This document shows positions 67 to 35,970 of a stretch of DNA of 37,463 nt, in pieces (the first letter of the stretch is position 1; every line of letters starts with the position of its first letter). The notes under the pieces are model-generated. The model had not been told where the DNA came from, did no database searches, and worked only from the letters and a program-made list of their open reading frames with translations. Both the position numbers and the translations under genes were made by a program. The DNA is from Spirogloea muscicola (Eukaryota; Streptophyta; Zygnematophyceae; Spirogloeales; Spirogloeaceae), in contig WELB01000016.1 in assembly GCA_009602725.1 (NCBI GenBank), positions 157,526 through 194,988 of the forward strand, read 5' to 3'.

Positions 67-1338
67 ACACGGCGAGTTCGCCACGCGCCGAGTGGGCTGC
101 AGCAAGCTGCTGCCGTCGCTGTACGCAGGGAAGCCAAAAGAAGAAGTGGCTCTCCCAATGGGGGCAAGGGCTGTGAGAAGGCAGCCCGAAAAGAGTTGAC
201 AAGGTTCGAAGGGGCCAAAGTACGAGCTAAAAGAGAGAGAAGCGGCTGCTGATATTAAAAGAGCGGCTGCTGAGCTAAGCAGCGACTGCGGGGCCTGAAG
301 AGGCTGTGGCAGAACGGGGGAGGATGGACCACTCAGTAGTTACGAGAAGCCAAAAGACCCCAAGAAGCCAAAACCCCCCCGTTTCCCTTCCAAGGGGACG
401 TGGATTTGGAGTCTTTTCCTGTATCTCCGCCTGTGGCTCCGCTACCCTAGTCGTGAACACCGACTGCATGGACCAGGCTGGCTTCTTCAGCCGCTCTCGA
501 ATATCAGCAGCCACATTCTTTCCCCGAAAGGAGTAGCCAAAAGGGGGCCGAGGGCGGTGAAAAGCCAGCCCAGAGAACTGGACACGGAAGAAAGACTCTT
601 CACCCGGAGAGGGCGATGGCGAATGGACAATGGCCCAGACTCCCTTTCGGAAGGCGTTCTTCTTCGTAGGCATCTCCTTGGCTCTCTGGATTTCATCCAT
701 TTCTTTTCGGGCTGGCCTCTGCCAGCCCTTCTTCTCTATGGGCGCGCACTTTCTTCCTCTTCATTGCCAGCCCCTCTTCTCTAAGGGCGAGCCATTCTCT
801 CTTTGCCCATGCCTCACGTTGCTGTCCTGTTGTTGGTCTTACACACAGGGTACTGACTTGCTTGGCTAGCCTTCATTTCATGCGCACACTGCGCCTTCCT
901 AAACCCCTTCTCTGACGTCCTGAAGCCCACAGTGATGACGGACATGGTGGCTCCCTCCTCCCACCGGACAATGGAGGCTGTCCAGTGGGCGGGCCCTGTG
1001 GGCATCGCCAACTGCTGAAGACCACACCACGTATGCCCCACTTGCGCAACTGCTACTTCCCCCTGACCGTCTACAGAAATTTGTGTATTCGTGAAAGTTC
1101 GTGCAATTGCGCACTGTTGCCATGAGCCATCGACGCCTCTGCAGGGAGGCCAAGTCCTTATTTGAGTCGAATCTGGCCACGGCATGTTGTCTCATCGCAG
1201 CATCAGCCTGCCCTCTCCTACTTCAAGAGACGCAGACCATTCATACACGAAGGCAGCTGCAGTAAGGGCGCATGTTGCAAAGCCCGTCCCTGCAGCCAGC
1301 CAATAACAATATCACAACGTACTGCGACCACACATCGA
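1..1338. other. Left-edge intergenic stretch with repeat copies; possible partial exon at 2-120
   Basis: No complete gene is supported here. Bases 33-67 are a GGC trinucleotide run. A plus-strand frame through it encodes a poly-Gly run followed by HGEFATRRVGCSKLLPSL and then a possible GT donor near 121. This could be the end of an exon of a gene lying outside the window, but nothing confirms it. Bases 127-230 are a hairpin-repeat copy whose reverse complement recurs at 6795-6895. Further copies lie at about 535-600 and 700-790, and a GCGC-rich motif copy at 865-898. The region ends at the 3' side of the CRY-DASH gene. Confidence 0.5.
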
Positions 1339-4300
1339 TCAAAATCGAACGGATCCACCAGAGCGTGCATAGCTGCGGTTGGCACGCCCACCATGGTGGC
1401 CGCCGCGACCACCCCTTCCTCTGCCACGGCTTCCAGAAGCGCCCCCCGAGCCTGGCGTAGACTTGAACTTCAGTGGCACGATGGGCAGCGGATAACCACC
1501 GGCGCCAATGTTGTGTTGCTCCTGCTCCACCGGCAACAGCTTGTGTGGGTTGTTTCGTAGTGCTGGCGGAACCCCCTTGAGCTCCGGTATCCAGTGAGCA
1601 ACATACTCCCCCTTAGGATCGTAGTTATGCGCCTATTGTCACCATGACAACCCACCACCACCAAGTTTGTGAGAGTATGCAACCAAGCAAGCACCGTGCT
1701 TGAAAGCAGTAACTTCAAGAGGTGGCTTGAAGAGGAGCGTCATCTTGCAGCAACTATGGCAGCCAAGTCGTTGGCAATGCCAGCTAAACGGCACCATGAC
1801 ACTTCCTTGTTGCAAGACAAGGTACCTGCTTGGGTATGCTGAAGTACCGGTCTTCTCTTGGATCATTCCCCACACCTGCAAGTGGTTAAAGAAATGAGAC
1901 TTGCGGCAGGAAGCAACGGTCATGCAATGAGCCAGTAAATTCAGTCAGGAAGAAGCCTGCAGCAGACAAAGGCAGCCTGAAATACGACTTCACAGACGTG
2001 CTCCAACCTCTTGACTGCAATTCAACAATTGCAGCAGATGTGGCAAAGTCATGAATCATACCTGCTCCATATGTCCAATTGCCATAATTTGAGCAAGGAT
2101 CATAGTCCAAGAGGCATGTTTCGAACCACTCAGCACCCATCCGCCAATCCATGCCCATGTCCCTCACGAAGAATGAGCAGACAATCTGCACATTGCCAAT
2201 CCTGTAAGTATCACATAAGGTCTCCTTCTAAGCACTCTGACATCAGCCATTGGCCACATTGTTGTGCCAGAAGCTGGTGAAGCTCTAACACAACGTACCA
2301 GAGAGCCAGAGAACTAACAAGCAGACCACCAAGTGGCAGACAAACAAGCTTGCCCTCAGATAGGCAGACGCAGCTGGCATGTTTTCTGGCCAACTGACCT
2401 GGCGGCCTCTGTTTGACATGTACCCTGTGGCGGAAAGCTCGCGCATGTTTGCATCCACCAGTGGATACCTGAGCACAGGAAGACATCCCCCAGAATTGCT
2501 TGAAGGCAGATGATATGTTACTCGACAGAAGTGTGCAGAAACAAGAAGTTGAAAATAACTAGTGGTATGAGCTCCTTATTGCCAGTCAAGCTATTACAAC
2601 AAGAGGTAGGTCTGCTATGACTGCTTAAATTTCATGAAGATTAAGTAATTCATATAGAATGTGAATCTTTGGACTGGAGCAATCTCTTGACTCCAATTGC
2701 TAAAGAAAGAAGAGGGCCTAGGCCCATACCCAGTGCGACCTTCCTTCCATGCCTCAAAGAGGGCAGGGTCACGGCTCCAACTTAACCCCTTCACTGACCT
2801 TGGGCCAGCTGTCACAGAGGGCAGCCATATAGGTGAATTAAGGGATTTATTACGAATGCTGCCAGACAATCTTGCTGCATCAGCCGATAACATGGATCCT
2901 CAATCTGGATATATGGCGAGCAATGCGCAGAGATTCCAGTAAATCACATTCTCTGTGCTTGCAAGCAGCATGCAAGCAGACAACTTCACTAAACAAGGAC
3001 ACATGTAACTGCAAACACGTACTTAAAAGCGCGTGCTACCTGCCTCTTTGCTAAGCACAAGTATAACGATTACAATCAGGAATACCTAAATGGAAGAGCG
3101 AGTTGCCGTACTTCAGAGCAACAAACCGAAAGTAGTCTCGCCAGATTAGCTCAAACAGAACCCTGGTTTCAGCAAGCACAAGAATGAGAGCAATATGCAA
3201 GCAAATTGAGAAGGTGCTGCTTATTTACCAAGCCTTCAAATAATACGGTCTTGACTTGAAGAAGGGCACCTGACGCAGGACATTGACATGCTGGCAAAAT
3301 GCTGCAGGACCAAGCAAGAACATTGGAATGCTGGTATTCACCAGTTCCAGATCCACTACAAAAAGCCTGGATGGTGCTTTTACCAGTAAGTGGAATCATT
3401 CGCAACTCTTTGGGATTCGTACCGCTTGACCTGCCAGACCATATTACCAGACATCATTGAACTTTCATATTGAGCAAATACTGATTCTTTGGCCTTCAGT
3501 CTATCCCCCAACCCCCACCCCACATCCGCCCCTCTCCCCCCAAAGTAAGCCAATACATGGACTTGCTAGTAAATAATGACATGCAATGCATCACAGTCAG
3601 CTGTGAGTAGCATGAACCAATGATGGAAAAGGAGTGGTCTAAGTGAGCCCACAAGGAACTCTACGTCATATCTGAGTTGCAGCAACACATGTGAATTGGA
3701 CAAAGGCAGAACAAGTCATACCTCTTCGTATATGAAGCGAGGGGACAAGCAACCAGCCGCAAGCCACGGCGAAAACTTGGTCGAATAATCAGCCCCAAGC
3801 ATCCCATTGCGTGTATGCTTGTATTCTCTGATGCAATCCTACAAGCACCAATTGCACAGACCACTTCAACAAGGCACGTCAACTCAGCCCTATGGCTGCT
3901 CAGCATCTAAACAGGAACCATCAACCAGAAGTACGATATGCTGAGATCTAGACAGTTTATCATCATGCCTGGAAGATGCTGTGTATTGCTTAGGTGCAGC
4001 ATGCAGTAAGGTCCCTCACAGTATCCCAAAAGTAATGCTTGAGGCGCTCAAGTGCGACTGTCTCCCCACCCACTATGTGCATGACACCTCTCTCGTCCTG
4101 ACACATGTTGACTCGTGTCAGCTTCTGGGAAGTCTGTAAGTGCCACAGGAAGATATCATGCTTAGCTCGCAAGGATGTGTAGTGGAGCTTACATACTTGC
4201 TTACGAGGCTGAAGTCCCAATTCTTCCAACTTGGGCAGCTCACCCTTGCCTCCAATAGATTTCAAAATGTCGCCATCAGGCATAGGTGCAAGCTTCCCTG

Positions 4301-5589
4301 GCATAGCTATGGACTTCCGAACTTCACTCGATGACTCCACGGCCTTCAGGAATGAACGATAGCTTGGTGAACTTTGTAAGACGACCACAACCTGCCTGTA
4401 AGGCTGAGGTGCTGCTCAATTCATTATATTCTGCTTATCCTCTCTACTAACTCCTACTTCAAGGGTACGCTTTTCTGTCAACACTCAGCCACTGAGTCTT
4501 TTCCAAAGAGCAGTCGTCATCCCTCAGCGCTGAAAGCCAATGTATCTGCAAGCATGCCAAAGTAAGAGCGTGCGGCAACTAACAAGAGGAGCACAGCACC
4601 AAAAGACGGTCTCACCTTCCTGAACTGTGTGTACACATCAGGGGTCTGATTAACGGGAAATGGAAGGTCGTCCAGGTGGTACATTGTGTGCCCCCATACA
4701 TATTCCAGCCTGACCCTGTGCTTCCTGCTCCCGTCAGCTGGAATGGTGGCAGCCTCATCCAGCCTCTCAATCTCACGAGCCACGCCCTTCTCCACCCTGA
4801 TCTCCTCGTCGCAAGTCTCTCTCTGCACAAACACCTGGGGCCACATAACAAGCACCAAGTGACAGTAAGTGGAGGACAGGATCTGCATCTCTCCTGGACT
4901 CCCAGAGGACAGTCTCATATGCAAACCTTCGCATTTCTAATACCCAAAGTGTGCAACACGACATCAACATCAAAACTAATAATGCTTTGATAACCGCAGG
5001 GAGCCCCTTCTCTGCCTCAATCAGAAGGGTCAAAAAGCACAGTGCCCTACCGTGTGTGCTTTCAACGCGTGTGCAATTTTAGGAACAACTTCCTCCGGCT
5101 TCCCGAACCTGACAATCAAGTCCGAGCCTCTGGCCTGTAAGCTCGCTCTAAGGTCGGCCACACTGTCCAGCATAAATTGCGCCCTGAGTTCTGCGTCACA
5201 ACAATTACAGACTGCTGCGTTAGTGCAGCTAGCTAGTAGATGGGTGGCGTGCGTGGTATTTTGCTTGGAAGAAATTTACATACTGAGTGCAACAGCGGTT
5301 TTCCAAAAAAACCCCTCGTCAGGAAAGCACGCAACTTTTTTACATAGCACAAACAAAACCCACCTCCAGTCTTTGGTAAGCCATAGGTGTACGTCTGGCC
5401 AAAAAACCGTGGGTCCAGGCAGTAGAGCGGCACAAGGACCTCCGTGCTCCTGTGAGCTCGTATGAGTGCCTCGTTGTCGTGCACGCGTAGGTCGTTACGG
5501 AACCACACCACCGCGATCCCAGCACCCGCCCCGCCGCCATTGCTTGCCACTGGCAAGCCGGCGCGCACGGGCCTGACAGGCTGCTGCAT
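1339..5589 (-). CDS. CRY-DASH: DASH-type cryptochrome / photolyase (CRY-DASH), 13 exons, 564 aa
   Basis: Flavin blue-light protein of the photolyase/cryptochrome family. DASH members repair pyrimidine dimers mainly in single-stranded DNA and may also signal; they carry FAD and usually a folate antenna. Exons (high to low): 5589-5364, 5190-5051, 4834-4616, 4343-4197, 4124-4020, 3838-3722, 3430-3384, 3162-3086, 2808-2730, 2468-2399, 2185-2062, 1875-1826, 1632-1339. All have GT-AG borders, phases agree, and the total is 1695 nt. Motifs: [16 protein letters not shown] (27-42, antenna domain start), [45 protein letters not shown] (FAD pocket), [50 protein letters not shown], and [13 protein letters not shown] near the end. 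It follows plant CRY3 (about 569 aa) throughout. The C-terminus is RG-rich ([19 protein letters not shown]), as in several DASH proteins. The start ATG gives only 24 residues before the domain and no clear transit peptide, so an upstream exon is possible. Confidence 0.95.
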
Positions 5590-6165
5590 TGCAGCAGGCG
5601 CTGCGGGCGGCCACCCACATTTTGCCGCAGGAGACCGAAGTCAGCTCGTCGCGAGGGGTAGTCACCAAAGCACTCGTAGCACGTCGTGAGCACGTGATTG
5701 AGTACCAGAACGAGCTCGCCAAAGGCACAAGATTCAGCTGCTGTGACATGCCAATTGCACACATGAGGGCTGAAGGTGCGGCGACGATCGGTGGGGGTCC
5801 AGACCGACGTCAATGACCATCTCCTCACCGGCGATGGCCCGACGGCCCCACAGAAAGCCAGTCGGCGGCGCTGCCACTGGCCGCCGGAGGCGCGCGCCCC
5901 TGACGAGGAAGCTGCTCCAACCGGCGCCGCACGCCAGCGAATTCAGCTCCCTGCTCCGGCGGGCGACGGGGCGGCCTCAACTCAAGCGGCGGATCAGCAA
6001 GGCGGGCTGACGGCGATCGAGCGCCAGCGCCGCGGCGGCGCTTTGCAGCCACGTCTCGGGCGCGCTCAGCCCCAGCGGCACTGTAGTTGGCGGGCTTTAT
6101 GCGAGCTCGCGCAGCAAGAGCTGAGCATCGTCACCTGCGAAAGGCGGAGGGGCTTTGGGGCGAGC

Positions 6166-6202
<37 letters not shown>

Positions 6203-6430
6203 TGCGGCGGCGGCGGCGATGGCGGGCATGCGGGGCCGACGTGGTCGTGTGGCTGGCTAGCGCGCGGAGGACAGGCGTGAATTGGAGCTCCGGGAGGGCC
6301 AGAGCGGCCAAGTACGGAGGCCAGCAGGTCCCCAGTTCTGAAACATCGGCGCGCTTCCCGACTCCTTGCATTCTTTATTTACTTCGATGTTTCTTTTTTG
6401 GGCTGGCCATCGCTCACAATAAAAGACAGC
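5590..6430. other. GC-rich stretch upstream of CRY-DASH, no firm gene
   Basis: This is the 5' side of the minus-strand CRY-DASH gene and should hold its promoter. I see no convincing TATA box. A minus-strand frame starting near 6230 encodes MPAI, a poly-Ala run and GGSPQSPSAFR before a possible GT donor. It could be an organelle-targeting first exon, but no acceptor can be joined to it with confidence. The long plus-strand open frame across 5776-6456 is Arg/Ala low complexity and is not treated as a gene. Confidence 0.4.
6167..6219. repeat. CGG/GGC trinucleotide microsatellite
   Basis: About 50 bases of CGG repeats with one interruption (gctgcgg). They read as poly-Arg, poly-Gly or poly-Ala depending on frame. 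Similar runs occur at 33-67 and 37350-37383, a sign of general GGC/CGG expansion in this genome. Confidence 0.9.
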
Positions 6431-6432
6431 GC

Positions 6433-6552
6433 TTCCAGATTTACTGGTGGCTGTGAGAGGCCCGCCCAAAAGAATGGACAAGGAAGGTCTGGAGGGGCCG
6501 GATGGCGCAAAAAGCAAGAAGCAAGATATTAAGTGCTAAGACGGCAGCAAGG
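6433..6552 (+). repeat. Interspersed repeat subtype E, copy 1
   Basis: About 115 bases: a GGTGGCTGTGAGAGGCCCGCCC core, then AATGGACAAG, GGAGGGGCCGGATGGCG, AAAAAGCAAGA and GGCAGCAAGG blocks. The same blocks in the same order occur at 10209-10325, with small indels and substitutions. The order and spacing show a single ancestral unit rather than a chance core match. Confidence 0.75.
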
Positions 6553-6960
6553 AAATTGCTCGCCCCTAGAAACAGAGGGGCTAGCAAAGCCAGCCCAGAA
6601 AAGAATGGACAATATTCAAGGGCCATAGAAAGGTGCCGAAAAGAAAAAAAGAAGAGCAAGGGGGGGCGCTCAGTAACCTCGAGTCAGCAAGTGCAAGTCA
6701 GAGTAAACAGCAGAAATCCACTATTGGAAACTCTTTCGCTCTTTGGACGTTGCTCATTCTTCTGTGGGCTCTTGCGCTCTGTTTCTTCTGCTTAGCTCGT
6801 AGTTTGGCCCCTTCGAACTTTGTCAATTCTTTTCGGGCTGGCTTCTCACAGCCCTTGCCCCCATTGGGAGAGCCACTTCTTCTTCTTCGTTCTTCTTGCG
6901 CCTCCTACTCTTCCCAACCTTGTCCATGCCTTCTGGGCTGGCCTCTCCCACGGCGGGGAA

Positions 6961-7017
6961 GCAAGCGCGGCCAGATTAATTGGTGGCTGGGAGAGGCCAG
7001 CCCAAAGGAATGGACAA
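6961..7017 (+). repeat. Interspersed repeat subtype F, copy 1 (57 bases)
   Basis: Begins GCAAGCGCGGCCAGATTAA, includes the GGCTGGGAGAGGCCAGCCC hairpin and ends GAATGGACAA. It differs at one position, by eye, from 26006-26062, about 19 kb away in the same orientation. Such identity suggests recent copying of a short unit. Confidence 0.85.
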
Positions 7018-7382
7018 GGGGAGCGGACAGCGACCCACGACCGCCTTCGGGATGCGATGCATGGCATCCTTTTGGAGTCTGGCTTTTCGGTGCCCAGTCT
7101 CTCTGACCTCAGGCTGCTTAGCAGGGGTTACTGAGTGCTTCGTAGCTGCTTGATTTCCTTTTAGTGCTTGTTATTCTTCGTACTTCCCCTGGCCCCTTCT
7201 CGTCCTTTGTTCATTCTTTACTGAGTGGTCCATCCTCCCCCGTTCTGTCATAGCCTCTTCAGGCTATGGGAATGGCTATTGGCTATTCTTTTCGGGCTGG
7301 CTTCTCACAGCCCTTGGCCCCATTGGGAGAGCCACTTCTTTTCTTAGCGGTTCCCCTGGCCCCTTCTCGTCCTTTGTTTATT

Positions 7383-7580
7383 CATTTTTGGGGCTGGCCT
7401 TTTCCAGCCCCTACCCTCAATGGGCGAGCCCTTCTTCTCGCAGCCAATCGATTCCTCAAAATCATCGCCATACTTTTTAAGAGCTGTTTCGTCGTCTCAA
7501 GCCCTCGCTCCCTTCTCTTTTTCTTTGAAGAAAGTGCTCGCCCATTGAGGATAGGGGCTGGAAAAGCCAGCCCAAAAAAA
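7383..7580. repeat. Foldback (inverted-repeat) element built from two opposed hairpin repeats
   Basis: The left arm, about 7385-7434 (GGGGCTGGCCTTTTCCAGCC, then CCTCAATGGGCGAGC and CTTCTTC), is matched by its reverse complement at about 7527-7577 (GAAGAA, GCTCGCCCATTGAGG, GGGGCTGGAAAAGCCAGCCC). The arms are about 50 bases and the loop about 95 bases. This is the layout of a foldback or MITE-like structure. I cannot identify target-site duplications. Confidence 0.7.
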
Positions 7581-7640
7581 GGAGGAACAAACTGCTGCTT
7601 GCCCTTCACCAAGATATCGTTACGTGGCCCCGCTTACTAA

Positions 7641-10150
7641 CCCCGTGGCTCGCGCGGCACAGTTGGCTCAGTCATGACTGAGCTCAACTCGCGTCATCGT
7701 CAAAGTCGCCGTCACTACGTCAGCACCTCCTGCCAGCGGGCTAGCGGTCCGCTCGGCCGACCCCGTCCTTGCTGGTCAACGGCCCCGGGTCGCTGATTCC
7801 CGGCTTTGGACGCCAGAGCCAGAGTCAGCCCCGCTGACCTGCAAAGTGGGTTTCCGTCGCAAGGGGCCACGTGGGCCTCATCGAGCTCCGCTGCTCCGAA
7901 GCTGGGCGAGCGCTCAATGGTGAGGGGGATCGCATGTGTCTGCCGTCTGGTATTGGGGCCTAGTCAACCTATGAGCAGTTACCGGATGTGCAGTAAGCGG
8001 GTAGGTAATGCAACATGCGAACCTTCTTCACACGTGTCCGGCGTCATGCCCGTTACCAACAAATACGGCAAGCCTTACCTGCGGCGTCCAGACCTCTCTG
8101 CCGACCCCCAGAGCGATGGGCCTCTCCTCCTCCTCGACATTGTACGCTTTTAAAGCGGGAGCACCCATGTCGCTGTGCCTGGCTGGGCAACAACCCGCTC
8201 CAAGCACAAAAAGGAGGGGCATTACGAGGCCCACCACGAGGGGACCACTTCTATGCGTGACGCTATGGACGTGTACTACGGCTATGGTAAGAGATGGTCC
8301 TTTGACCTTCAGCATGTGGCCCAGCTGGTTAACACGCCTTGTCGCAGTCGGGGGGGGGGCAGCTTGAGGCACACCAGCAAACCGCAGAGGCATCGGATGC
8401 ACCTTACAAAATGCATCGCTCTCTGCAACGCTTACAAGATTTGGCTATTCATTGCATGCCGGAAGCACTCTAAGTCAGGCCACTGGCTTCCGTGGCGGTG
8501 CTCCAGCTCCCAAAGTGTCTGTCCCATATTCTGTGTGCTCACTCAGGGGTACTGATGTCTTCCTTCAGCCGGCTTTTGCACTGATACCTCAGCTCTTTTG
8601 TTAACATAGAGCTTTGCTCTTTGTAGCCCCATTCTTAGCACTTGCCCTTGTATCAAAAAAGTAATGGTTTGAACAGCTCGCTGCTGACTGCAAGCTCGCC
8701 CGCTTTGACAGTGCAAGCCGACTCAAGTCTTCCGGCCAGGTGCATACGACTGCAAGGTGCTGCAGCAGGCCATTCTCGCTAGTGCTGGCCCTTCTTATTG
8801 TACAAGTTTGTACCAATTTGTTTGTGGTGTTTGTCTTTTTACGGTTCCCTGCAGGTGCTTATAGGCTTGGGCTTTTCGAAAGTCTACAGTTTGAGGTTCT
8901 TTGGACATCCAGTTTCTGCTATACTGTTCCAGACTAGCCAATAAGCTCCCTGCATCCATACTAGTGCCGATAGCCAACCCCACGCATGTCCAGCAAGATC
9001 AAGTAATGAAGGAAAATCATAGGACGGTCTGACGAATTCCACAAATAGTCAGCGACGCGCAATCAGTAGTACGATGCCATTGAGAAAGGAAGCCAGCACC
9101 CGGACAATAGCAACTGAAATGGAAGTTTCAAAGGGCGGCAGAACAGCTCACTTAAGTCAAAGCGACTTGATGACTAGCTCCAGCTCGAAATACAACCTAC
9201 AAATGTAGATACTGTACACAATCCCGTCGACTAACAGCAACATGCTTCAAATGATTTCAATGAGCATTTGCTGTAGACCTGCTGTAGACGGCAGCCCATC
9301 CTTTCCCCATGTATGGACGGATGGTATTACTGCTGCAATTTCAATAGAGAGAGAGAAGGCGCGCTCTGCGCTTTAATTAGAGGGAGGCCAAGCAAGCCAG
9401 TAAACTGCACAGAGGAACAAAGAGAACTTAACATGGCCTAAGGCAACAAAACGAAAAAACACAAGTGTTGGGGGACTTTAGTACCCACGAGTGAGCATGG
9501 ATGTATCGTTCCATCGTTTGTGAGCGCCAACCAGCGCTGTTGATGTAACATGATTGGAAAGTTGCGAGCGAGTTCCAACATGCTTACCCGTACTATGAGG
9601 CCGTCAGGCTCATACGCTCATACGCACGGACATTTATGTGCCGTTCCGCACTCGTCCCATTCTCGTCCTTGGTCGACATGGTCTTGCCAGGTGACCCTCA
9701 GTGGGTCCAGCACATTGGCAGGTGGCTCTCGGTGAGTCCACACACGGCCCAGGTGGTCCTTCAAGTGCCTTCACCTGGTCCTTAGGTGGTCCTCAGGCCC
9801 TCAGGGCCCTGACGGCACCTTTGGCGGCAGTAGCTCTGTCGCTAGCCGCTTGGCAGCAAACGCGTGTCGTGTTACTCTCGTGCGGCCCATCACTCGCGGG
9901 GTGGGCCTTTGGGCAACCCCCACACCCTGGAGGGAGGGGGCACGGAGAAGCACTACAAGGATCGGCCGAGAGACCCGGCTGAGGGAGCTCGGAATGGTAA
10001 AGCCCAAAGAGGCGCAGTACTGCTGCTGCCTGCTTCGCAGCCCGTCGCCGCAGCTCGCTTTCGGCTTGCTACGAAGCGTCCGTGGCTGGCCCTTGATGGG
10101 CTAGTTGCTGACTAGTGCCCAGGAGGTGGGCCTGCTGCCTGACGGCTGCA
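7641..10150. other. Intergenic region with old dispersed duplications
   Basis: No gene is assigned. It contains 7900-8555, related to sequence at 23.4-24.56 kb, and 9830-9990, which looks like a third, more diverged copy of part of it. Bases 8560-9800 show no recognisable gene or repeat beyond a GCGC motif copy near 9355. A short degenerate repetition of CAGGTGGTCCTY-type segments lies around 9745-9805. Confidence 0.45.
8010..8555 (+). repeat. Dispersed duplication, copy A
   Basis: It shares order and spacing of matching blocks with 23500-24030: TGTGCCTGGCTGGGCAACRAC, then TACGGCTATGG next to TGGTCCTTT, CCAGCTGG, ACTGGCTYCGTGG and TGTGCTCACTC. Translated in matching frames, both copies give PGWATT, a charged stretch with HY, and Y-GYG with WSF nearby. 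That hints at a former protein-coding exon, but both copies lack a coherent long frame. I do not recognise the protein. Confidence 0.55.
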
Positions 10151-12480
10151 CCACAGGGCGCAGTCTTTGATTGCGCTAAAGCGCTAGTGCTTCATTGTTT
10201 AGGAGAACAGCACTTCCAAATTGACTGGTGGCTGTGAGAGGCCCGCCCAAAGAAATGGACAAGTTCTGGAGGGGCCGGATGGCGTAAAAAGCAAGACACT
10301 AATGGCTAAGCCGGCAGCAAGGGGGCTAGGAGGTTTGCTCCTAAACCCCCTATGTCGGAATTGGACCAGGACCAGGATTTTTTGATTCTGTGTACAGAAG
10401 CAGGTCACTATACGCGGTCTCGCTGGTCATCATCAGCGAGAGGTTGAATGTCAGCACGAGAAGACCCCATCCCCCGCCAATGGATAGGCCAGTGGCAATA
10501 ATACTGCATCATTGCCTGCCGACTGATGCTGACGCGCCACATCAGCTCGCGACCGTAGATGTTGTGACAGGCAGCATGCACACACACACAGCTTCTGCTA
10601 TTGTGCCCTCAGCGAGGAGTTTCGAGGCAAATGATTGAGGCATTGGTGCATCGAGATGGATACGATGTACAATATGGCGGGAGCTTGGGTAATAAAGACG
10701 ACAGATCCGAGCATGGCGACCCTACCCGCCGCTTAGTGCCTGTCGCTTCGCTTTCGCTCAACTTGCCAAGCCACAACGAAGGTGGAGACAAGCACCTGGT
10801 CAGGCCAGGTGGCCGTTGCGTTAGGCAACACTTCGACCCGCCAGCTTCTCGTGGCCCGCTTGCAGAGGAGCACATGACATTCAGAGGCGGCTGTGCAAGC
10901 CAGCCGAGCAGACACACAGAGTATCGGGAGAGCATCAACACTCCGCCACAAAAAGCTGGCACGGACGGGAGCGGCGACCATCGCCCGACTCTTGCAATCC
11001 GCATGTACTGGGTGGATGGACAGGCCGCTCGCCGAGTCTGCTGGCCCATCAGCCGGGCGTGGTGGGCGCACAAGCCCCGATGCGACGAACTCCCGGCGCC
11101 TCCCCGCTGGCGGTGCCGCCCAAGGCGGGGCGTGTCAAGGGGCCCCCGCTGAGTGGGCTCCTTCCTGCTCGAGAAGCTAGAGGATCTGAGCTAGAGAAAT
11201 CAAGTTCCGCTGTCATATCCTTCTCCCCACTGAATACACGGCCGGGCAACGAGGGAGGTGGCTTCGGGGGCCGCTGCAGGCCCAGCGGGGGGGAGTGGCC
11301 CGCGACTGGCGCCGGGTCCTCCGGAGATTCCGCATGCGGCCCCGTCGTCGCCCCGCGGGGCATCAGCCCCGCCCTGCTCGGGGCATCCACTCCCTCCCCT
11401 CCTCACGGATCATCAGATGTGCTTGCCTATGTACTTGGCCATTCTAGCCTTCGCTTATTCCAGATACACGAGACTCTCACAGCCATTGCCCCAGGGTATG
11501 CACTGCCATTTGCCTTTACAGTGCAGTGGCTTGATGGCCACTCTCTCACTTCAAGCGCACTGCGCGCCTTCTCTCTTCACGCCAGAATGATGCATTGGCT
11601 CGAAACGGCCTCGCCATTACATTCGCACCGCGCGCGCCCTCACTTGCTGGGGGCTCTTCCCTCCTGCCCGCTCGCCTGCCGGCGCAGACCGCCCCGCCCT
11701 CCGCCGCGCCTCTCGGGCTCCTCCAGGCCGCCCCCCTGCCGGCGCCAGCCAGCCCCGCCCTGCCCCCGCGCGCTCCCAGAACCTCCATGATCAGCCAGCT
11801 CCTCATCAGCACCGAGCAGATTGACAATGATTAGTAGCTTGCTAAGGTTCACAACATTGACTTGTGCAACAATCCCTATGAGGACCTTAATGTCAGCAAT
11901 GTCGCTCGGCTCAAATTTCGAGTCCACGTCCTTTCCCCCAGGACTAGACTCTCACAAGCATTTTGTTGATATTCTGGGGTCTTTTGAAACAGAGACTTTG
12001 ACGAGCTGTCCCACTATAAGCGCCACCAATGAGGGAATTCAGAGGTAAAAACAAACCTCAAAGCCCAATGTCAATGATGTACTCTTGAGTGACGACTCCA
12101 GCTTGGGGCCTGCTGCTGTCGTAGTTTGGTGATTCACGATTGAAATGTACTTGTTTTGGAGGTCTCCGGAGCATTGAGCTACGAGATCTATGAAAGTCGC
12201 GAGATCGGCATACGGCTGCTCAAGAAGTCGTGGCTTGCCGCCTCGGCACACCCGCGTTGGAGGGCAAGCAGCTTGTACTGGCACGTGAAGCAGGCGCTGA
12301 AGGCGACAAGGCTGGGGAGTGAGAGCCGACGAGGCCCGGGCGCGAAGGCATCTATGAAATCGTCTCGAGGTGATCGATGAACGCCGCCAGGCGAGGTGAG
12401 CCGCGCCGGATAAGGCTTCCTTGAAACCGGTGGATGGGACGGAGGCCAGTGGTGTGGGTTCCGCGATGGCCCCGTTCAGG
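10151..12480. other. Intergenic, repeat copies and unassigned open frames
   Basis: It contains repeat E copy 2 (10209-10325) and a motif block near 11431-11590 (GTACTTGGCCATT with a Y-rich tract, then CGCACTGCGCGCCTTCTC) also seen at 24640-24690 and 28730. Several frames give plausible-looking peptides on both strands at 11640-12380, for example PPKQVHFNRESPNYD on the minus strand near 12100-12170. None joins into a recognisable gene, so I leave them unassigned. They may be exons of an unknown minus-strand gene. Confidence 0.35.
10209..10325 (+). repeat. Interspersed repeat subtype E, copy 2
   Basis: Direct copy of the unit at 6433-6552, with the same succession of blocks. It shares the CCCGCCC variant of the hairpin arm, which separates this subtype from the CCAGCCC copies elsewhere in the window. 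Confidence 0.75.
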
Positions 12481-20997: not shown

Positions 20998-21085
20998 AGT
21001 GCGGCTACTAATATGAAAAGAGCGATGTGAAAGCCAGCCAGATGCATGCAGAGTGTTCATGACGGAGCCACAGGCTAGGCAGACA
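20998..21085 (+). repeat. Intergenic copy of the repeat found in the TIM13 intron
   Basis: It shares blocks in the same order with 34509-34610: GCGGCTACTAATATGAAAAG (matching GCAGCTGCTGATATTGAAAG), AAAGCCAGCCAG, a TGCAT segment and GGAGCCACAGGCTAG-CAGACA. Pieces of the same unit, GCTGCTGATATT(G/A)AAAGAGC, occur at 243-268 and 27590-27612. Confidence 0.75.
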
Positions 21086-23479: not shown

Positions 23480-24030
23480 GTATCGCCCTGGAAAAACCAT
23501 CTCTGCGGATCTGGTGAGCTGCAACTGTGTATGGGCTGCTATGGCGGCTGCCTTGCTGCCCCTCGGAGCCGCGGGCCTTGCCTCTTCACTGATGTCGTAC
23601 TCCAGACGTTTTCGAGGGGGGGCACCAACGTCAACTGTGCCTGGCTGGGCAACGACCCACGGAGCACAAAGAGAGAAGGCGCACAAAGAGGAGAGACACT
23701 ACAAGGACCACCAATTAGACCACTTCTATCCGCATGCTGTGGGTATCTACAGTGGCTATGGTAGTATGTGGTCCTTTCTCCTCCAGTTCTCGCCCACCAG
23801 CTGGTCGACATGCGCCGTTGTCTGGTGCGCAGCTTTGGGCAGACTAGCAGGCTTTTCTGTCGAGTTACACTAATGCGGCTCTCGCTCTTATGCAGCGCTC
23901 CCAAGCTTTGATGATCCGCTGGGGACTACTGGGGGCGCGCACTTAGCCAGCCCACTGGCTCTGTGGTGGTGCGCTGGCTTCCCAAGTTAGGCTGTCGGAT
24001 TAATATGTGCTCACTCGTGGTTACAAAAGC
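23480..24030 (+). repeat. Dispersed duplication, copy B
   Basis: Partner of 8010-8555 in the same orientation, about 15.5 kb away. This copy keeps a longer frame, with VPGWATTHGAQREKAHKEER, HYKDHQLDHFYPHAVG and IYSGYGSMWSF preceded by an Ala/Leu-rich stretch. It resembles a small organelle-targeted or membrane-associated protein, but no family is recognised, and flanking stops make it unlikely to be an intact gene. Confidence 0.5.
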
Positions 24031-24435
24031 CCCCTTCAGTTGTATTCACGCTCTCCTAGCCCCTCTTAGTGGGATAATTGTTGTGGTAGCCCCATTTTCT
24101 GCACTACTGCTTCGCCTAAGAAGTGTACTGGCTCGATTGGGTCTCCTTTTTTTCTTTTTTATTCATGTGCACTATGTGCCTCCTCTCTCGGGCCACTCTT
24201 CCACTCTTGCCGAGTGTGCCTTTGCCGCATCGTCGACGGGCGTCCTCGCTCCTACTGCGGCACGCCAAGGAAGCGCAAGCACAGAGGGCAGCAGCGCAGC
24301 TATAGGGAACCATACCTCGAGAGGTCCAGCAACCGGTCGCGCCAAAGCCGATCACACGAGGTAAGCCAGGCAACACAGTGATCGGCACTCGGAGAATATG
24401 ATTGTCGTGTTCAAGCCATTTCCCTTTATCTTACT

Positions 24436-24506
24436 TTCTTGCGCCGTCGAGCGACGGCCTGTTTGCAGCGTGCTCAGGCTAATGCTTTGCACCAGAAAGC
24501 TGGGCG
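24436..24506 (+). repeat. 71-base duplicated segment, copy 1
   Basis: Matches 25060-25130 over its full length without gaps, at roughly 80 percent by eye, ending in the shared block ATGCTTTGCACCAGAAAGCT. The following bases (GCTGGGCGAGC and CCGTCTGGTATT) also match 7905-7960, so this belongs to the same dispersed material as the 8 kb region. Confidence 0.7.
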
Positions 24507-25059
24507 AGCTCTATTTGGTGGCAGAAGGGTGTGGATGTGCCGTCTGGTATTCAGGCATCAATCAGCGACCTTCATGTGTTGACCCGTTACTGAGCGGGTC
24601 ATTTGGGAGTCGGTGATGTACATCATCAAAGTGTGCTTGCGTTTGTACTTGACCATTTGGGCCTTCGATTATTTCAGATGCAAGAAACTTTCCTTCAAGC
24701 TACTTAGGTAGCTAGGCCTTGCCCCATCCGAGCCACGTAGATAGTTGGGCCTTGCCCGCACAGTAACATAATTCTTTGGCATCCGCCCTTGCTTACTGGT
24801 CATTGGGCCTTGCCTTCAGTCAAGCTATCATAAATTGGTTCGTGAGACTCTTCAATAAGGACCTTGCGGACATTCATGCTCGTGCCAGGTTCCGTTGCAT
24901 TGATGCTGTGCATCTTTTTGCTGCCTCACCTTTCATTGGTGTGGCTGACTCACCTGGGCTTGGCGATCGGCTCGCTCTCCTCAAAAACAAAGTGGGAGTT
25001 GCACAACGTGAGACCCTGCTTCTGGCTGGGATGTGCACTTGCTGGCGGCATATTTGTCG

Positions 25060-25130
25060 TTCTTGCGCTGTCGTGTGTCAGCCTGTCTGCAGCTGGCTTA
25101 GGTTCATGCTTTGCACCAGAAAGCTGGACG
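25060..25130 (+). repeat. 71-base duplicated segment, copy 2
   Basis: Second copy of 24436-24506. It lies inside a 133-codon open frame at 24867-25265 whose hydrophobic N-terminal half might look like a membrane protein. The repeat content argues against that frame being a gene. Confidence 0.7.
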
Positions 25131-26005
25131 GGGGAAAGACAAGCATGGATGCAGATTGATTTATCCTGTCTGAGTTGGCGCGCCCAGATGGAGGCCAGAA
25201 TAGACAAATTGTTGTTTAAGGATTTAGGACATGTGCGTGACGCAGTTAGTTGCTTTGTCGCTTAGGGAATTTTGATTCAATGGTCCACAGTCATATAATT
25301 GTATCATATAATTAAGTCTGAGGTATTATGGAAGACACTATACATCAGACCTTGTCTGACATTTCTGATTCTCCCGTGTATATGTTCAATAACTTGCTGC
25401 TTCAGTAAGTTGCTGCACTTATCAACAGTATTCTTACCCTTTCAAGATAGTAAGTTGAGGTTATTGATATTCGTGTTGCAAATGTCTCAGTAGAACAAGT
25501 ACTAAACTATACTTCAAGTATCATGAACAGGTCATTTCCAAGGAGTAGCTTGTTTGACGTAAGGCAGTGGCTGTGGAAGGCCAGCCCAAAGGATTGAACG
25601 TCGAGAAGGGCCGGAAGGTGCAACTACTTTTCGCCACTTCTAACAGTGAAAGCTCCGTTTCAAATATCAAGTGCAGATTGGAATGCCCAAGATGGCGAAA
25701 ACTTTTCGTCCTGTCAGGCCAAGGCGGAATCCGGAAGCAGCAGCCAAGGTGAGGTCTAACTGTGAGTGCACGGCAAAAGCCCTGAACAGCTGTTGGAAGA
25801 TAAAGAGTATATCTTGTACACACGAGTAAGCGGCCTGACGGTATTGAAGTCGGAAAATTATTGGAAGTAAAGTGTCACATTTGCACATTTCATGCAAGAA
25901 TAATTCTTTTGCAAGTGTGGAAGTCAACTGATAGTCGATGTTTACACATCAGATTTGAAGACTGCAGAAGGTTGCTTCTCGTGACTTAAATCTTTTGCTA
26001 CAGCA

Positions 26006-26062
26006 GCAAGCGCGGCCAGATTAACTGGTGGCTGGGAGAGGCCAGCCCAAAGGAATGGACAA
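26006..26062 (+). repeat. Interspersed repeat subtype F, copy 2
   Basis: Near-identical to 6961-7017 (one mismatch seen). It sits in AT-rich sequence just downstream of the minus-strand secreted-protein gene, and the match stops abruptly at AATGGACAA, giving clear right-hand borders for the repeat unit. Confidence 0.85.
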
Positions 26063-27612: not shown

Positions 27613-30600
27613 GCTGGTGAATGCGGAGGGGCGTAGGGCGGAGGGGCGTTTCTTACGCGGAGGGGCGTTCCCAAGCATCGGGGCACCCCGGTCCGCCCAG
27701 GCCGCTCGCCCCGTTGACCGCGGGGGCCGTGAGGCGGCCAGGTGTGCCGCGGCGCCACGGCCCCCACCGCCGCTCCTCCGCGACGTACCGCCACCACGCC
27801 GCTCCTCGCGGCATCTTGCGATCGGCATCTTGCCATCAAATGATCCGCCGCCGCCGCCGCCGCCCACGTCGCTTGAAGCCCTCGGCGCTCGGGCGTCCAG
27901 CTAACGCTCTGTGCGCGGGGGCCCCACCTCCGGTCGCGCCCCGCCCGGCGCGAACGCTTCTCTGCAGCTAGCTCCCCCATGCTCAACCTCCTCCGTGTGG
28001 GTAGCGGCGGCCACTTCCAGGCCTTCCCCCGAGTGGAGACGCTTTGCTGCGGTTGCGATCCCAGCTGTCGCATCCTGCGTGACTCGTTGGTTAGCCCTGC
28101 AGCTCCGCGCACGACTGCCAGGTGCTGCTTGAGGATAAAGCATTGGGCAGGCCGTGCACTTCCCGTGCCCGCCCGAGACAGATGACCTCATCGTGGACAA
28201 GGTCGTGCTGACGATGATTGACGGTGCATCCTTCCTCAGATAGTGACCGTCCATAAAAAAGGTCTTCTGATGGGGCGATGGCTGTGAGGAGAGAGAGAAA
28301 AGACATGTAAGGCAATGGCTGTGAAAGCCCAAAAGCAGAAATGGATGGACAACTGGAGTCCTCAGCGTCCACTTTGCACCGCAGTTGCTGGGAGGGGGCC
28401 CGCGTCTGGGCGTCCCAGCGCTCAAAAGAAGAGCCGAATGCGGGACACACGCATGGCGTTCCTGGAAGCTACCCAGCTCGTTCATTCTTTCCCTAATCAC
28501 ACTGTCACCCGCTACAGGAAAGTCTTTCTTCTTCAGCTTGGCCCCTCAAACATTGTCGTTTCTTCCTGGGCTGGCATTTCTGGCAATTGTCGATTCTTTT
28601 GTGGGCTGGCCTCTCACAGCCATGCCCGATCTAAAAGAGCTATTTCTTTGTGGGCTGGCTTTTCACAGCCCTCGCCCCTCTATTGAAGAGCTGCTTCTTT
28701 GTGGCTGGAAATGGCCCCCCTTCCAATTCATGCGCACTGCGCGCCTTCTCTCTTCTCTCTTTGTGGCTGGCCCTGCACAGCGCTTGGCCTATTTGATATC
28801 ATTGCTTCTTCAACTGCGGCTATCTCTTGTGGAAGAACTCTTTATTTCACTGCCATTCAATTCCCTAGAAGAAAGGAGAGAGAGAAGGCGTGCTGTGCGC
28901 ATGATATCAAACGATGGCCAGTTCAAGCCAACACATTGTTCAGGCTAGAAGAAAGAGCATCTCTTCTAAAAGTACTTATCTAGCTGGGGCGAGAGTGATT
29001 AGGTGCTCGGCGGGCCTGCCTCACTTTCTATGGGCGAGCAATTTCTTGCCAACGGGCTAGACGCCGGCGCTCTGGAGCCTTGGAACGAGCCGCTCGGCGG
29101 GGGGGACCGCCTGCACAAGCCGGCGAAATTGCGCGGCCGCTGCGGAAAGTGGGCGGCGGGACGGTAGCGTGGCGGCCGATCATATGGCAGATGGCGTGCT
29201 GGCCGCCTCCGCCCCCCGCAGACCGCGGGGCAAGCGGCTGACTGACCCTTTCTTGGCACTAGCTTCTGCCTGGACTGTGAAGTGGCTTGATTTTGCCACC
29301 CATTCATGTGCACCGCGCGCCTGCGCTCTTCTTAATCGCGCGCTCTTCCCAATCGCAGCCCTGAGGAAGGACTGCTCCTGTCAGTGGTAACGCCCGGTTT
29401 CTTACCTATGGGCTGGACTTCTACGGCTCATCTACTACCGTTGCATTTGTCTTCCTTTCTCCGGCTGGCCGCTCACAGCCATTGCCTTCAGATGAATGAG
29501 CTGTTCTTTGGAAGAACAGCTCATTCAGTTCCAGTTCGGGCGCGCGCGTGGCGAGGAGGCGCGGCGCCGGCGAGGTTGGGGCAGGAATGGAGCCGCCGTC
29601 GTGGGGCCCGCGCGCACAGCCCGGCGACTTGAGCGCCCGCGCGGCAGGGCCTCTGGTCAGACGACAAATGCCGTGCTGGCACGCGTCCCAATGCATCTGG
29701 CCCCCTCCGAACTCCGCGGTCCGCGGGGCCATGGGCGTTAGGCGGACCAGGGCGCCCCGATGTTCGGATAAGCATCAGCAGCTCTTCCAGCGTAGGGGCA
29801 GCGGCTGTGGAGGCCAGCCCAAAAGAACTGAACTAGTAAGCTCATCCAACGGGGAGGATGGCTGTGAAAAGCCAGCCCGAAGACAGTTGACAAGTCCGAA
29901 GGGGACCGAACAAGGTTTCCCCTTCCAATTCGTCTGACTGCGTGACTTTCTCCTCTTCTCTTTTCCTTTGTTTTCCTTACAGACAGAGTATTGGCTTGAT
30001 CTGGCCTCCCTTTCATAAGCACCCGGGCGCCTTCTCCTCCTCTCTCTCAGGTCTCCGTATTCTGTAGCCTTGTTTAGTTTGCACTAGACTTTGCCTGAAC
30101 AAAGTCTTGGCCTCTCTTCCATTTCATGCGCTCCGCGCGCCTTCTCTCTATAGACCTTGTTCGCTCTTTCGTGGGCTGGCTTCTCACAGCCCTCCCCCCC
30201 CTCTTCTTTTCAGAGTCGGCCAACATTTGTTGCTGACCAGAGGTGCTTTCCAAAAGCACAGCTCTTCCTTGTGTATGTCTTCTGGTGCTGGCCTGTCACA
30301 GGCATCGCCCCTTCTGGAATAGGGCTTCCATATAATCTTCAGAACGGGGCTAGTAGCGTGAAGAGCAAGCCCACAGAAGATTGAACAAAGGTTTGGCAAC
30401 ATGACGAGGGGTAACGAGAGCGCCATCTGACTGAGTGTTGGCTGTAGTTGGCCTCCCTTCAATCCCGGCTCCTTCAGACCTTGTCCATTCCTTTGGGCTG
30501 GCCTCTCACAGCCACCAGTCATTTCGGACGCGCTCTCCTTCAATTCATGTGCACCGCGCGCCTTTCCTTGGAAGGGCTTCCACCCCCACCTTCATCAGCC

Positions 30601-32520: not shown

Positions 32521-32529
32521 AAGGCCTAT

Positions 32530-32875: not shown

Positions 32876-32880
32876 ACCAC

Positions 32881-34265
32881 CCTTCCCAGATCCTCTCAGG
32901 GATCCGACTTTCAATACATACCCGCTCTTCCTGGCCCTCAAGGCCTATCACAGAAGGTCTTTTGTCAGCGACCTATCAATGGGTCGTCACAAGCCACCAA
33001 TGTCCTAAAAACACCATCTCTTGTCGGCCGTTTGCCTTCGACGTGCTAACGTCAACGGCCTCAAGTCAACGTCTACGTCCAGATTCGTCAATCAAATGTC
33101 GTCATTCTCCAGCCTCCGGACACCTACCAGCGTCCAGCGCATCATCACGCTGTCTTGCGTTAAAACCCTGTTCTCCGCCCGAGGAGGAAGATGAACTTGC
33201 CCCCATCTGCCTGATGAGGTGTCTGATCTCCAGGCATCTGTCAAGCCGTTCTTCCTACGGCATTGACATCAACCATGTAGACAAGAGTAATTTCGGCAGT
33301 CCAGCAAAGCTATATCACTAAGCGGTCTACTCGCCAGGCTCCAGCCCTCATGCCAGCAGCTTTGTGCTTCAGTCAAGGGCAAGCAGACTCTTAGGCAATA
33401 TGTACTCATATCTGTCTTTTCTGAATTCACCTTCCAATTTGCTGCTCAAACAGTGTAATTTGAAATGAGTCAGCCACTCGTTGCCTCTGTCATCATAGTG
33501 ACACTCGTCCACCTGGTGGAGTCTGTTGAAAGCTTTGGCTTCGGACACGCTCACAAGAGTCCCGCTTCACAGGCCCACGTCCAAGTGGCCCTTGCAGCCA
33601 ACTGCCTTTGCATAACCTCTATCTCTATGCTGATTTTGCCATTGGAGGTACACAACACATTGGGTGATATTACGTTGACGCACTCAACAGATGCTCCCCA
33701 CAAGAGCTGAGGGCAACTTGATTTGGCTGTATGAACATTGGTACCAGCGTCAGCAACGTAACTTTGGCAGCAGTAGCGATCCATGACCTTGGCTCCACAG
33801 TCCAGACTTTACTCATGACCTTATCCGCGCAATGTCCTCTCTTTCAAGTCATCGCACCGCAGATTGAGTGGCAGCAGTGATGGGCTTCGCATTAGAAGAT
33901 GCGCGCTGCGCGCTCTCTCTCGAGAAGTGCTAGACCTGACAGGGCGGAGAAGCAGGAAAGCCAAGACTCTTGCAGTAGAGGGCGATGGCTGTAAACTGGC
34001 CAGCCCAGAGATAAAGAACGAACAAAGAAAGTAGAAGCAGCTCTTCCGTGAAGAAGGCGGCTGCTGATACCCGAAGATATGGAAAAAGGAAAGCTGAAAA
34101 GAAAAGGAGGGGAGGGAGGACGAAATAGCGACCAGAGGTTGGAGACGAGCCGCCCGTCGGCGGGTCCGTGGTTGACGGCGCGAGCTGCGGCAGGCCGCGC
34201 GCTGCGGCGCTCCTGGAGCAAGCGCGGCCCGGCGCCGGAGGCCGCGGCGGCGAGCCCTCGCCTCC
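32881..34265. other. Intergenic stretch upstream of TIM13
   Basis: No gene is assigned. At 33369-33784 frames on both strands look partly coding (for example NRLHQVDECHYDDRGNEWL on the minus strand, SNGKISIEIEVMQRQLAA just above it) but do not join into anything recognisable. Repeat copies occur at 33895-33930 (GCGCGCTGCGCGC motif) and 33980-34010 (hairpin core). The last 150 bases are purine-rich, then GC-rich, and should include the TIM13 promoter and 5' UTR; no TATA box is evident. Confidence 0.4.
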
Positions 34266-34852
34266 ATGGACGCCTTCGGGTCGGCCCCGGCGGTGGGCAA
34301 CGGCGGCGGCGCCGCGCCGCCCAACGACGTGGTGATGGACCAGGTGAAGGCGCAGATCGCGCAGGCCTACGCCGAGGAGTTCTTCACCGTGAGTCCCTCA
34401 CCTTTCGCCCCTCCTGCACCGCCGCCCACCACACCTTCTGGGCGGTCCCCGCCATGACGTCGGCCAGCCGTGGGAAGCTGCGGTGATGCCCGGTGGCTGG
34501 CAAGGTAAGAAGAATGCAGCTGCTGATATTGAAAGAGCGGCTGTAAAAGCCAGCCAGGTGCAAATAGACGGTGTGCATAGCTATATTAGCGGAGCCACAG
34601 GCTAGCAGACATGGCGCAGAAGCTGCTGCTCAAAATCAGGCACGCCCTCTCATCCTCCTCACCCCGCCACCCTCCATCCCTTTTCCTTTGTGCGCGCAGA
34701 CAGTGCGGGAGAAGTGCTTTGCGCGGTGTGTGACGCGGCCCGGGGCGAGCCTGAGCGGCGGCGAGGGCTCCTGCATCTCGCGCTGCGTCGACCGCTACAT
34801 CGAGGCCACGGGCCTCGTCTCCCGCGCCATCCTCACCAGCATGCCCAAGTAG
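34266..34852 (+). CDS. TIM13: Mitochondrial inner membrane import chaperone Tim13, 2 exons, 91 aa
   Basis: Small Tim protein of the mitochondrial intermembrane space. With Tim8 it forms a hexamer that escorts hydrophobic precursors to the TIM22 complex. Exon 1 is 34266-34388, exon 2 is 34700-34852; the 311-base intron is GT-AG, phase 0. The protein has a short Ala/Gly-rich start, the helix VMDQVKAQIAQAYAEEFFT, and the twin CX3C signature: CFARC, then 14 residues including GASLSGGEGS, then CISRC. It ends VSRAILTSMPK. The length and the CX3C-X14-CX3C spacing fit Tim13; Tim8, Tim9 and Tim10 are less good matches. Import is through the Mia40 disulfide relay and needs no presequence, in agreement with the N-terminus. 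The start ATG is the only one before the helix in frame. The intron carries a copy of a local repeat. Confidence 0.93.
34509..34610 (+). repeat. Repeat copy inside the TIM13 intron
   Basis: About 100 bases related to 20998-21085. In the decayed TIM13 copy at 18780-19171 the intron lacks this block, and the flanking intron bases on either side (GGCTGGCAAG-like and GCAGAAGCTGC) are adjacent. That pattern fits insertion into the intact gene after the duplication. Confidence 0.72.
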
Positions 34853-35970
34853 AACAAGGAGAACAGCGGCAGCAGCGGCGGCAACAGCAGCGGCAGCGCC
34901 CCACAATGAAGCCCTGTGTCCCTCAGCCGCCTCTTCAAGTCCGCAGGATCACTTGGCAGCTGCACAGGAGGCTACGGGCGCTGCCCGCCACTGTTTGATC
35001 TCTTGGCAGGGCTCTTGCCACGAGCTGCTGCTGCATCTGGCGCCGGCATGAGGCCGCGCTTGTGGTAGAGACAAGGTTGGTTGCTCCTCACTGTGGCGTG
35101 TGGTGACGTTCACAATCCTGTTGACTGATGCTCAACGCCTTACCGAGGCCCCACTGTAGAAGGCCTCCTGAGGCCTTAGAGCGCTTGCCGGCCCCTTTGG
35201 ACATTGTTCATTCTTTACGGGCTGGCTTCCACAGCCCTCGCTCCCTAGACCCTTAAACCCCTTCGGAAGAGCTAACTCTTGGTAGGCAACGCTGCGGCCA
35301 GGGAGGAAGCCATCGGATGGCAAGCGCATGCTAGTCAATTCTTCCTATTTCTCCACTCTCCTTCATCCCTGAACCTTCCTCGCCCTCTTTAGGCGTCGCT
35401 TCTCTCTCCCTCACCTTGGCCTCCTCTTTCACTTCCAGTGTTGCTCCTGCTCTCTTTGTCTTCTCCTCCATCTCCCACTCCCTAAGCACCTTTCCCCTCA
35501 ACCAAACCCTCTCCCCCATCCCCGCCCCCCCCATTTTCACGCTCTCTGCACGGCCGCAAGTAAGGCGAGGAGGAATTGCAAGTTGTGGCGGACTTGGTTG
35601 AATGTCAAACAGTCGTCTCAGCCAGCGCCGTCCATTTGGCAGCGGTAAGGGATCTGCTGCATAGTAGGACACAGCATCAACCTAGGGAAACCCCTTGCAC
35701 AACTGCACCCAAGCGCCGGCGTTGCATAGGCAATACTACCATTCCCTTGCGTCCCAACTAGAGCACCCGACTCTTTGACGAGTGAGCAGGTCCGCAGCCT
35801 GGCCATGGTGAGCCGCCCGATCGCTGGCGCTCGCAGTGTCATTCTATGCTTCCAACTTTGACTTGCACCGAGATGGCGTAGTCTTTGTTGGCACCAATGA
35901 GGAGCTTCGTGTTCGTGCTCCACGCTGCAGCAACCAAAACCTGAGGCGCTTCAGAAGCCGCCGATGGCTG
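34853..35970. other. 3' flank of TIM13 and intergenic sequence
   Basis: Begins with a CAG/GGC-rich 3' UTR-like stretch (34855-34910). A hairpin-repeat copy lies at 35205-35250. Bases 35340-35540 are a CT-rich tract. A minus-strand segment at about 35850-35940 reads VLVAAAWSTNTKLLIGANKD, somewhat like one WD40 blade, but it is isolated and too short to call. Confidence 0.4.

Follow-up and report, generated by a model that had tools for sequence, protein, structure and literature searches.

A dense hairpin repeat in Spirogloea muscicola probably represents the truncated 3' ends of a LINE group, likely of the R2 type

Long interspersed nuclear elements (LINEs) of the restriction-like endonuclease (RLE) type, such as R2, NeSL, HERO and Utopia, carry a single open reading frame (ORF) with N-terminal zinc fingers, a reverse transcriptase, a CCHC knuckle and a KX2KY motif. 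The KX2KY motif and the knuckle spacing, CX2-3CX7-8HX4C, are described in PMC5678591. RLE clades are mostly target-specific, while HERO mostly is not (PMC4640811). LINEs with a stringent-type tail, such as UnaL2, ZfL2-1 and ZfL2-2, have a stem-loop near the 3' end and, after it, short repeats. In zebrafish, the stem-loop of such LINEs is required and is bound by ORF2, an endonuclease (EN) domain lies ahead of the reverse transcriptase, and in ZfL2-2 the binding followed the loop and not the stem (PMC4176376). LINE clades that a review names for green algae include L1, RandI/Dualen and RTEX (PMC3747384), of which Dualen has an APE domain besides its RLE (PMC4640811). Here we analyzed 37,463 nucleotides of the streptophyte alga Spirogloea muscicola (assembly GCA_009602725.1, contig WELB01000016.1, forward-strand positions 157,526 to 194,988; hereafter the window), in which a short hairpin-forming repeat is very dense. 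These hairpins probably belong to the terminal 3' untranslated region of a numerous group of single-ORF LINEs, whose reverse transcriptase would recognize the hairpin.

The 19-nt core of the repeat occurs at 30 places in the window when up to 4 edits are allowed (14 on the plus and 16 on the minus strand), and at 19 places with up to 3 substitutions, whereas none of 30 dinucleotide shuffles gave more than 1 hit (0 or 1 each). Hairpins with exact arms (GGCTGG..CAGCC) are found at 19 unique sites, or 16 when the first G is required. We searched the whole assembly (153 Mb, 471 contigs), running control counts beside those of the motifs. There are 125 occurrences of the exact 20-mer (control, 0), and the relaxed pattern GGGCTGGN{3,9}CAGCC gave 37,887 strand hits (18,974 + 18,913) versus 56 (30 + 26) for the control. 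Strand hits outnumber sites, because palindromic copies are counted on both strands. In the fetched loci and the window, 221 strand hits correspond to 175 unique sites, and scaling by this ratio gave about 30,000 sites for the genome (0.20 per kb), a rough estimate since most of the loci used had been picked for carrying the repeat. The density in the window (16 sites, 0.43 per kb) is about twice this value. Window, shuffle and genome counts bear out the sequence-only reading of this DNA, which had described a dense repeat in both orientations with a constant core and varying flanks. In line with its remark that no named family matches, we found no name for the repeat: no Rfam family reached the gathering score in the window, and four spellings of the core were not found in the literature searched. 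A previous description of the LINE family was not found in that literature either, and this is no proof of its absence.

Interspersed relatives of the window copies have coinciding right ends and differing left ends, and the longest extend upstream into an open frame (DNA searches with two window copies, in which the best 40 of 2,401 and the best 40 of 771 candidates were scored). In one of these loci, L058, a C2H2-like finger precedes a reverse transcriptase (RVT_1, E=2.8e-17), after which come a CxC...HxxxC knuckle and a domain marked by the motif RRVD...DVVT.D...KxxK, the last letters of which are given as in aligned relatives. The stop codon is followed by 142 nt that include the hairpin and run up to GAGCCACTTC, and the sequence upstream of about position 6093 of this locus is a run of N. 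A genome search with a 227-amino-acid C-terminal part of the protein returned 21,739 first-look candidates, of which the best 150 were scored, and one with the N-terminal 300 amino acids returned 843, of which the best 131 were scored. Many matches of the latter lie in frames of 1,100 to 1,560 amino acids and fall into groups of identical score. To avoid circularity, nine loci were picked by protein match alone, and seven of them had a sense hairpin 65 to 115 nt past the end of the ORF. The same was seen 79 and 77 nt past the stop in L071 and L072, two long open copies found with the N-terminal query (at least 1,410 amino acids in a frame open at its 5' end, subfamily B, and 1,338 amino acids, subfamily C, respectively). 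In a looser, homology-based survey of 68 ORF ends, 52 had a hairpin in sense orientation no more than about 420 nt away. In the 12 loci that match RVT_1 best, 41,793 bases (about 1.5 kb on either side of the reverse transcriptase) contain only 1 exact-arm hairpin; these loci probably belong to other families or have their 3' end outside the stretch examined.

The layout of the ORF, with N-terminal C2H2-like zinc fingers, a reverse transcriptase, a CCHC-like knuckle and a C-terminal endonuclease-like motif, resembles that of the R2-type LINEs. RVT_1 is present in L058, L071 and L072; the N-terminal motifs of the last two were recognized by eye, and Pfam zinc-finger matches stayed below the cut-off. 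When a profile built from seven ORFs, of which three are long and four are C-terminal fragments, was compared with the PDB, R2 proteins were the only significant matches, covering the reverse transcriptase (9nl3, E=2.2e-6; 9dou, E=2.9e-6). The C-terminal motif of the aligned copies, RR(V/A)D..DVVT.D..KxxK(Y/H), fits the KX2KY description of RLE LINEs. We therefore firmly regard the element as a LINE, and its membership in the R2/RLE group is likely. Unlike most RLE LINEs, it is dispersed in many truncated copies and not strictly site-specific, and it further differs from them in its duplications of about 7 to 12 bp, its (TTC)n tail and the spacing of its knuckle. With UnaL2 and the ZfL2 elements it shares the stringent-type tail, i.e., a 3' stem-loop common to the subfamilies and then short repeats; unlike in the ZfL2 elements, Pfam detects no EN domain, and, unlike in ZfL2-2, the letters of the stem are the conserved part of the hairpin. 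It resembles the green-algal LINEs and SINEX of Chlamydomonas in its green lineage, in its non-A 3' repeats and in LINE tails with short relatives, while the repeats given in the excerpted text of PMC3747384 do not include (TTC)n. In contrast to Dualen/RandI, no Pfam family for an APE domain was detected up to E=1 in the ORFs of L071, with its open 5' end, and L072.

Marks of retrotransposition were found in three subfamilies. Among 53 type A matches, all selected because they reach the 3' end, the starts range from -34 to -1393 relative to this end, mostly as scattered 5' truncations, and the copies finish with ...GAGCCACTTC(TTC)n, the (TTC)n being present in many of them. Subfamilies B and C also have a common 3' end and variable 5' truncation. 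Target-site duplications of at least 7 bp flank 17 of 38 type A copies (3.0% with permuted flanks), 8 of 38 type B copies (1.3%) and 7 of 34 type C copies (2.0%). Many duplications open with T- or C-rich letters that extend the CTTC end, as pairing of the nicked strand with the end of the RNA would predict. The copies mostly look like the 3' remnants, truncated on the 5' side, of an autonomous LINE with long open frames in the same genome. Target-primed reverse transcription would begin at the 3' end of the RNA and stop after some tens to a few hundred nucleotides, so that nearly all copies of the window would be dead-on-arrival insertions. The reverse transcriptase may select its RNA by binding the hairpin together with its neighbors, the TTGTYCATTC that precedes it and the G/C-rich block and CTTC that follow; priming might occur at T/C-rich nicks through short homology with the terminal CTTC, and (TTC)n could arise by slippage. 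Recognition of the 3' hairpin in the manner of a stringent-type tail is most likely, by analogy with the zebrafish LINEs, in which the stem-loop is needed and bound (PMC4176376), and with work on R2. The sequence-only reading had proposed a repeat family whose constant hairpin is probably of importance, which agrees with our results, and had considered the element non-autonomous, which does not, as the copies look like the ends of autonomous LINEs.

Whether the hairpin is conserved was assessed on 54 sequences picked for their tail and for the TTGTCCATTC block upstream, regardless of the arms (59 were selected, and 5 that were chimeric or not part of the element were dropped). The arms are conserved in sequence. 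The core pairs (alignment columns 27 to 31) are kept in 48 to 51 of 53 distinct rows and hardly vary, while the loop changes in both length and letters and some subfamilies lengthen the stem by two pairs. TTGTYCATTC, GGGCTGGC...CAGCC and the G/C-rich tail block before CTTC are common to the subfamilies, whose proteins are about 65 to 70% identical. As the same hairpin letters recur across subfamilies, the reverse transcriptase of one may accept the RNA of another. It is possible, if somewhat doubtful, that LINE subfamilies with otherwise unlike 3' untranslated regions (UTRs) form one cross-mobilizing guild, for which the hairpin would be a shared entry ticket. Such subfamilies would evolve together, unlike the private tails reported for ZfL2-1 and ZfL2-2.

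Several results weigh against the assignment of the hairpins to the end of an R2-type LINE. Two of the nine protein-picked loci have no hairpin: in L062 the stop is soon followed by a second ORF fragment, and in L067 the homology stops short of the ORF end. An antisense hairpin lies near 33 of the 68 surveyed ORF ends, part of which may be explained by nested insertions and near-palindromic subfamilies. No duplication of at least 7 bp was found in 21 of 38 type A, 30 of 38 type B and 27 of 34 type C copies. A single ORF sequence gave only E=0.79 against the PDB, Pfam found no endonuclease domain, no Pfam or PDB match covers the region of the C-terminal motif, and the knuckle is spaced CX1CX12HX3C, unlike the published one. 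The 5' breaks pile up at -77 in type A (6 of 53), at -90 (6 of 38) and -74 (5 of 38) in type B, and at -95 (5 of 34) and -59 (6 of 34) in type C, positions at which diverged subfamilies may cease to align with the single reference. Finally, covariation in the arms does not exceed that of shuffles: 76.1% of the cells are paired, against 76.0% in shuffles of the 54 sequences, RNAalifold retains only 3 pairs, and folding of five whole 3' UTRs gave mixed z-scores (-0.99, -3.45, -2.64, +0.20 and -1.75).

The last results would suit a 3' end that is conserved because a protein or primer binds its sequence, without any role for the hairpin fold. The conserved arms without covariation above that of the shuffles, the linear blocks conserved on both sides of the hairpin and the mixed z-scores all speak for this explanation, which we regard as rather unlikely. 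It accounts less well for core pairs that persist while the loop changes and for stems extended by two pairs. Moreover, pairing falls from 76% to 32 to 63% when the partner is slid by 1 to 3 columns, and the hairpin regions of 74 flank-selected sequences, non-members included, fold at a mean of -10.2 kcal/mol versus -6.4 kcal/mol when shuffled. A need for the fold is plausible. Since the arms are conserved in sequence and do not covary more than shuffles, with changes on both sides in only 3 of 423 cells, the claim of compensating arm variants made in the sequence-only reading fails, and the covariation check that it had named is negative. The two variants cited there, at 709-728 and 7391-7410, match subfamilies D and C, which differ in loop-proximal pairs. 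In one 3' UTR of subfamily A (L058:9397-9541), the predicted fold pairs the start (GUGGU, CUCCC) with the end (GGGAG, GCCAC); such end-to-end closing is not evident in all five folded 3' UTRs.

Another explanation would have most copies made by a short interspersed nuclear element (SINE), transcribed by RNA polymerase III and mobilized in trans through its LINE-like tail. Published green-algal SINEs with LINE tails, such as the above-mentioned SINEX (PMC3747384), set a precedent, local copies are mostly shorter than 200 nt, and the pile-ups of 5' breaks, together with a further one at -38 in type A (3 of 53), leave some room for it. Yet the remaining 5' ends are scattered, the longer copies reach into the LINE ORF, and a fixed 5' end with a small-RNA head of the polymerase III type was not found. 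ARAGORN detected no tRNA in the nine loci scanned or in the window, and, as said, no Rfam match exceeded the gathering score. We hence consider a SINE origin improbable. A tRNA-derived SINE was also considered, since the antisense GGTTCGAAGGGG resembles a B box; it was rejected, as this B-box-like stretch is absent from subfamily B and neither ARAGORN nor Rfam returned anything above threshold. The type A copies starting at -38 are found in L003, L015 and L022 and begin with CTTTTCAC, inside the hairpin loop, and others start at -34, -37 and -39. The hairpin may be a frequent stopping point of the enzyme, or microhomology may be favored there.

Almost no credence can be given to a miniature inverted-repeat transposable element (MITE) or another DNA transposon with terminal hairpins, which would suit the palindromic core, the two orientations and the high copy number, but not the ends, of which only one is shared by the copies so that they form no fixed pair, the duplications that vary in length and come after the (TTC)n tail, or the reverse transcriptase ORF upstream, and for which neither terminal inverted repeats nor a fixed-length duplication was found.

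If the hairpins are LINE ends, an unexplained dense repeat becomes a readable record of retrotransposition, with about 30,000 sites and many subfamilies, several of them with long open frames. An abundant, dispersed LINE with an R2-like reverse transcriptase and a near-invariant hairpin would permit tests of how the RNA is chosen and of early stopping. For annotators, hairpins of this kind would be LINE tails and not microRNA or MITE loci.

The window was scanned with nine real 3' UTR copies from eight subfamilies, some with flanking bases (E<0.05), which matched 45 segments, versus 1 in the reversed window. On the minus strand, C-termini of LINE ORFs directly precede 3' UTRs of subfamilies G and F in two fragments, at about 18310-18647 and 21001-21394. 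In the first, a degenerate ORF end (18447-18647, ...LLLLTR; tblastn with the L058 ORF, 64% identity to residues 970-1036 of 1038) is followed in the same copy by a subfamily G 3' UTR (18310-18446) with a hairpin at about 18339-18358 and the 3' end ...GAGCTACATTCTTC, the match itself spanning 18329-18439 (77%, E=2.5e-18). In the second, ORF fragments ending in LLLTRGY-stop (21097-21394; tblastn, 60% and 42% identity) belong to a copy whose subfamily F 3' UTR lies at 21001-21102 (86%, E=2.9e-29) and has a decayed 3' arm of the hairpin.

A truncated copy of subfamily A, with relatives elsewhere in the genome, occupies 6788-6879 on the plus strand (98.9%, E=1e-42), with a truncation at -92, a hairpin at 6835-6854 and the ending GAGCCACTTC(TTC)n. 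Subfamily A is also represented by a 3' end at 143-344 (minus; E=2.3e-38), interrupted between about 231 and 292, by one truncated at -54 at 7279-7338 (plus; 95%, E=1.3e-22) and by a stretch of 3' UTR from upstream of the hairpin at 7220-7264 (plus; 89%, E=9e-12). The variant at 7391-7410 is held by a subfamily C 3' end at 7338-7434 (plus; 85%, E=1.3e-22), and the same subfamily contributes an upstream part of the 3' UTR that lacks the hairpin (7120-7219, plus; 80%, E=6.6e-20) and a 3' end at 7532-7593 (minus; 90%, E=7e-19). Five 3' ends belong to subfamily B: 6960-7019 (97%, E=2.6e-24), 26005-26062 (98%, E=2.6e-24), 10216-10279 (84%, E=1.3e-15) and 6428-6502 (84%, E=2.5e-18) on the minus strand, and 30465-30534 (89%, E=1.4e-21; hairpin at 30495-30513) on the plus strand. 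Subfamily D has 3' ends at 6558-6632 (minus; 84%, E=1.2e-16) and at 696-751 (plus; 84%, E=3e-11), the latter holding the variant at 709-728, and subfamily F has one at 34516-34562 (minus; 91%, E=1.3e-14). Further 3' ends are E-like (33969-34027, minus; 83%, E=1.1e-10), A-like (29840-29904, minus; 80%, E=3e-11; and 35190-35245, plus; 84%, E=9e-12) or F-like (450-512, plus; 77%, E=5e-7). Hairpin regions on the plus strand are B-like at 28587-28622 (89%, E=1.8e-7) and A-like at 28644-28678 (89%, E=5.7e-8) and 30173-30200 (93%, E=6.9e-7).

Other repeats and some genes were noticed alongside. A different repeat, arranged around GTGCTCAGGCTAATGCTTTGCACCAGAAAGCTGGGCG, lies at 24427-24506 and 25051-25130 of the window, with 80% identity between the copies, and was seen by eye in L013 and L019 as well. 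A 57-nt repeat (CTGTGCCTGGCTGGGCAAC...) is present at 8173-8229 and 23635-23691, near the open frame at 8028-8444 on the minus strand, and a stretch resembling it by eye comes after the 3' UTR of L071. L068 and L069 contain genes for chlorophyll a-b binding proteins of the light-harvesting complex; in the PDB, L068 matches chlorophyll a-b binding proteins of chloroplasts, first among them a long LHCI-2 chain that is matched in two stretches. Together with the CRY-DASH-type exon given below, these genes suggest the green lineage. As a lineage marker, PF12499 (DUF3707; pherophorin) was uninformative, since it matched neither the genome nor the controls. The open frame at 13742-14857 on the plus strand of the window, without a Pfam match, is proline-rich (SPPPP), as is typical of algal cell-wall proteins. 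An exon of a CRY-DASH-type photolyase lies at 5233-5640 on the minus strand (Pfam, 2.4e-13), and its best PDB matches are cryptochrome DASH.

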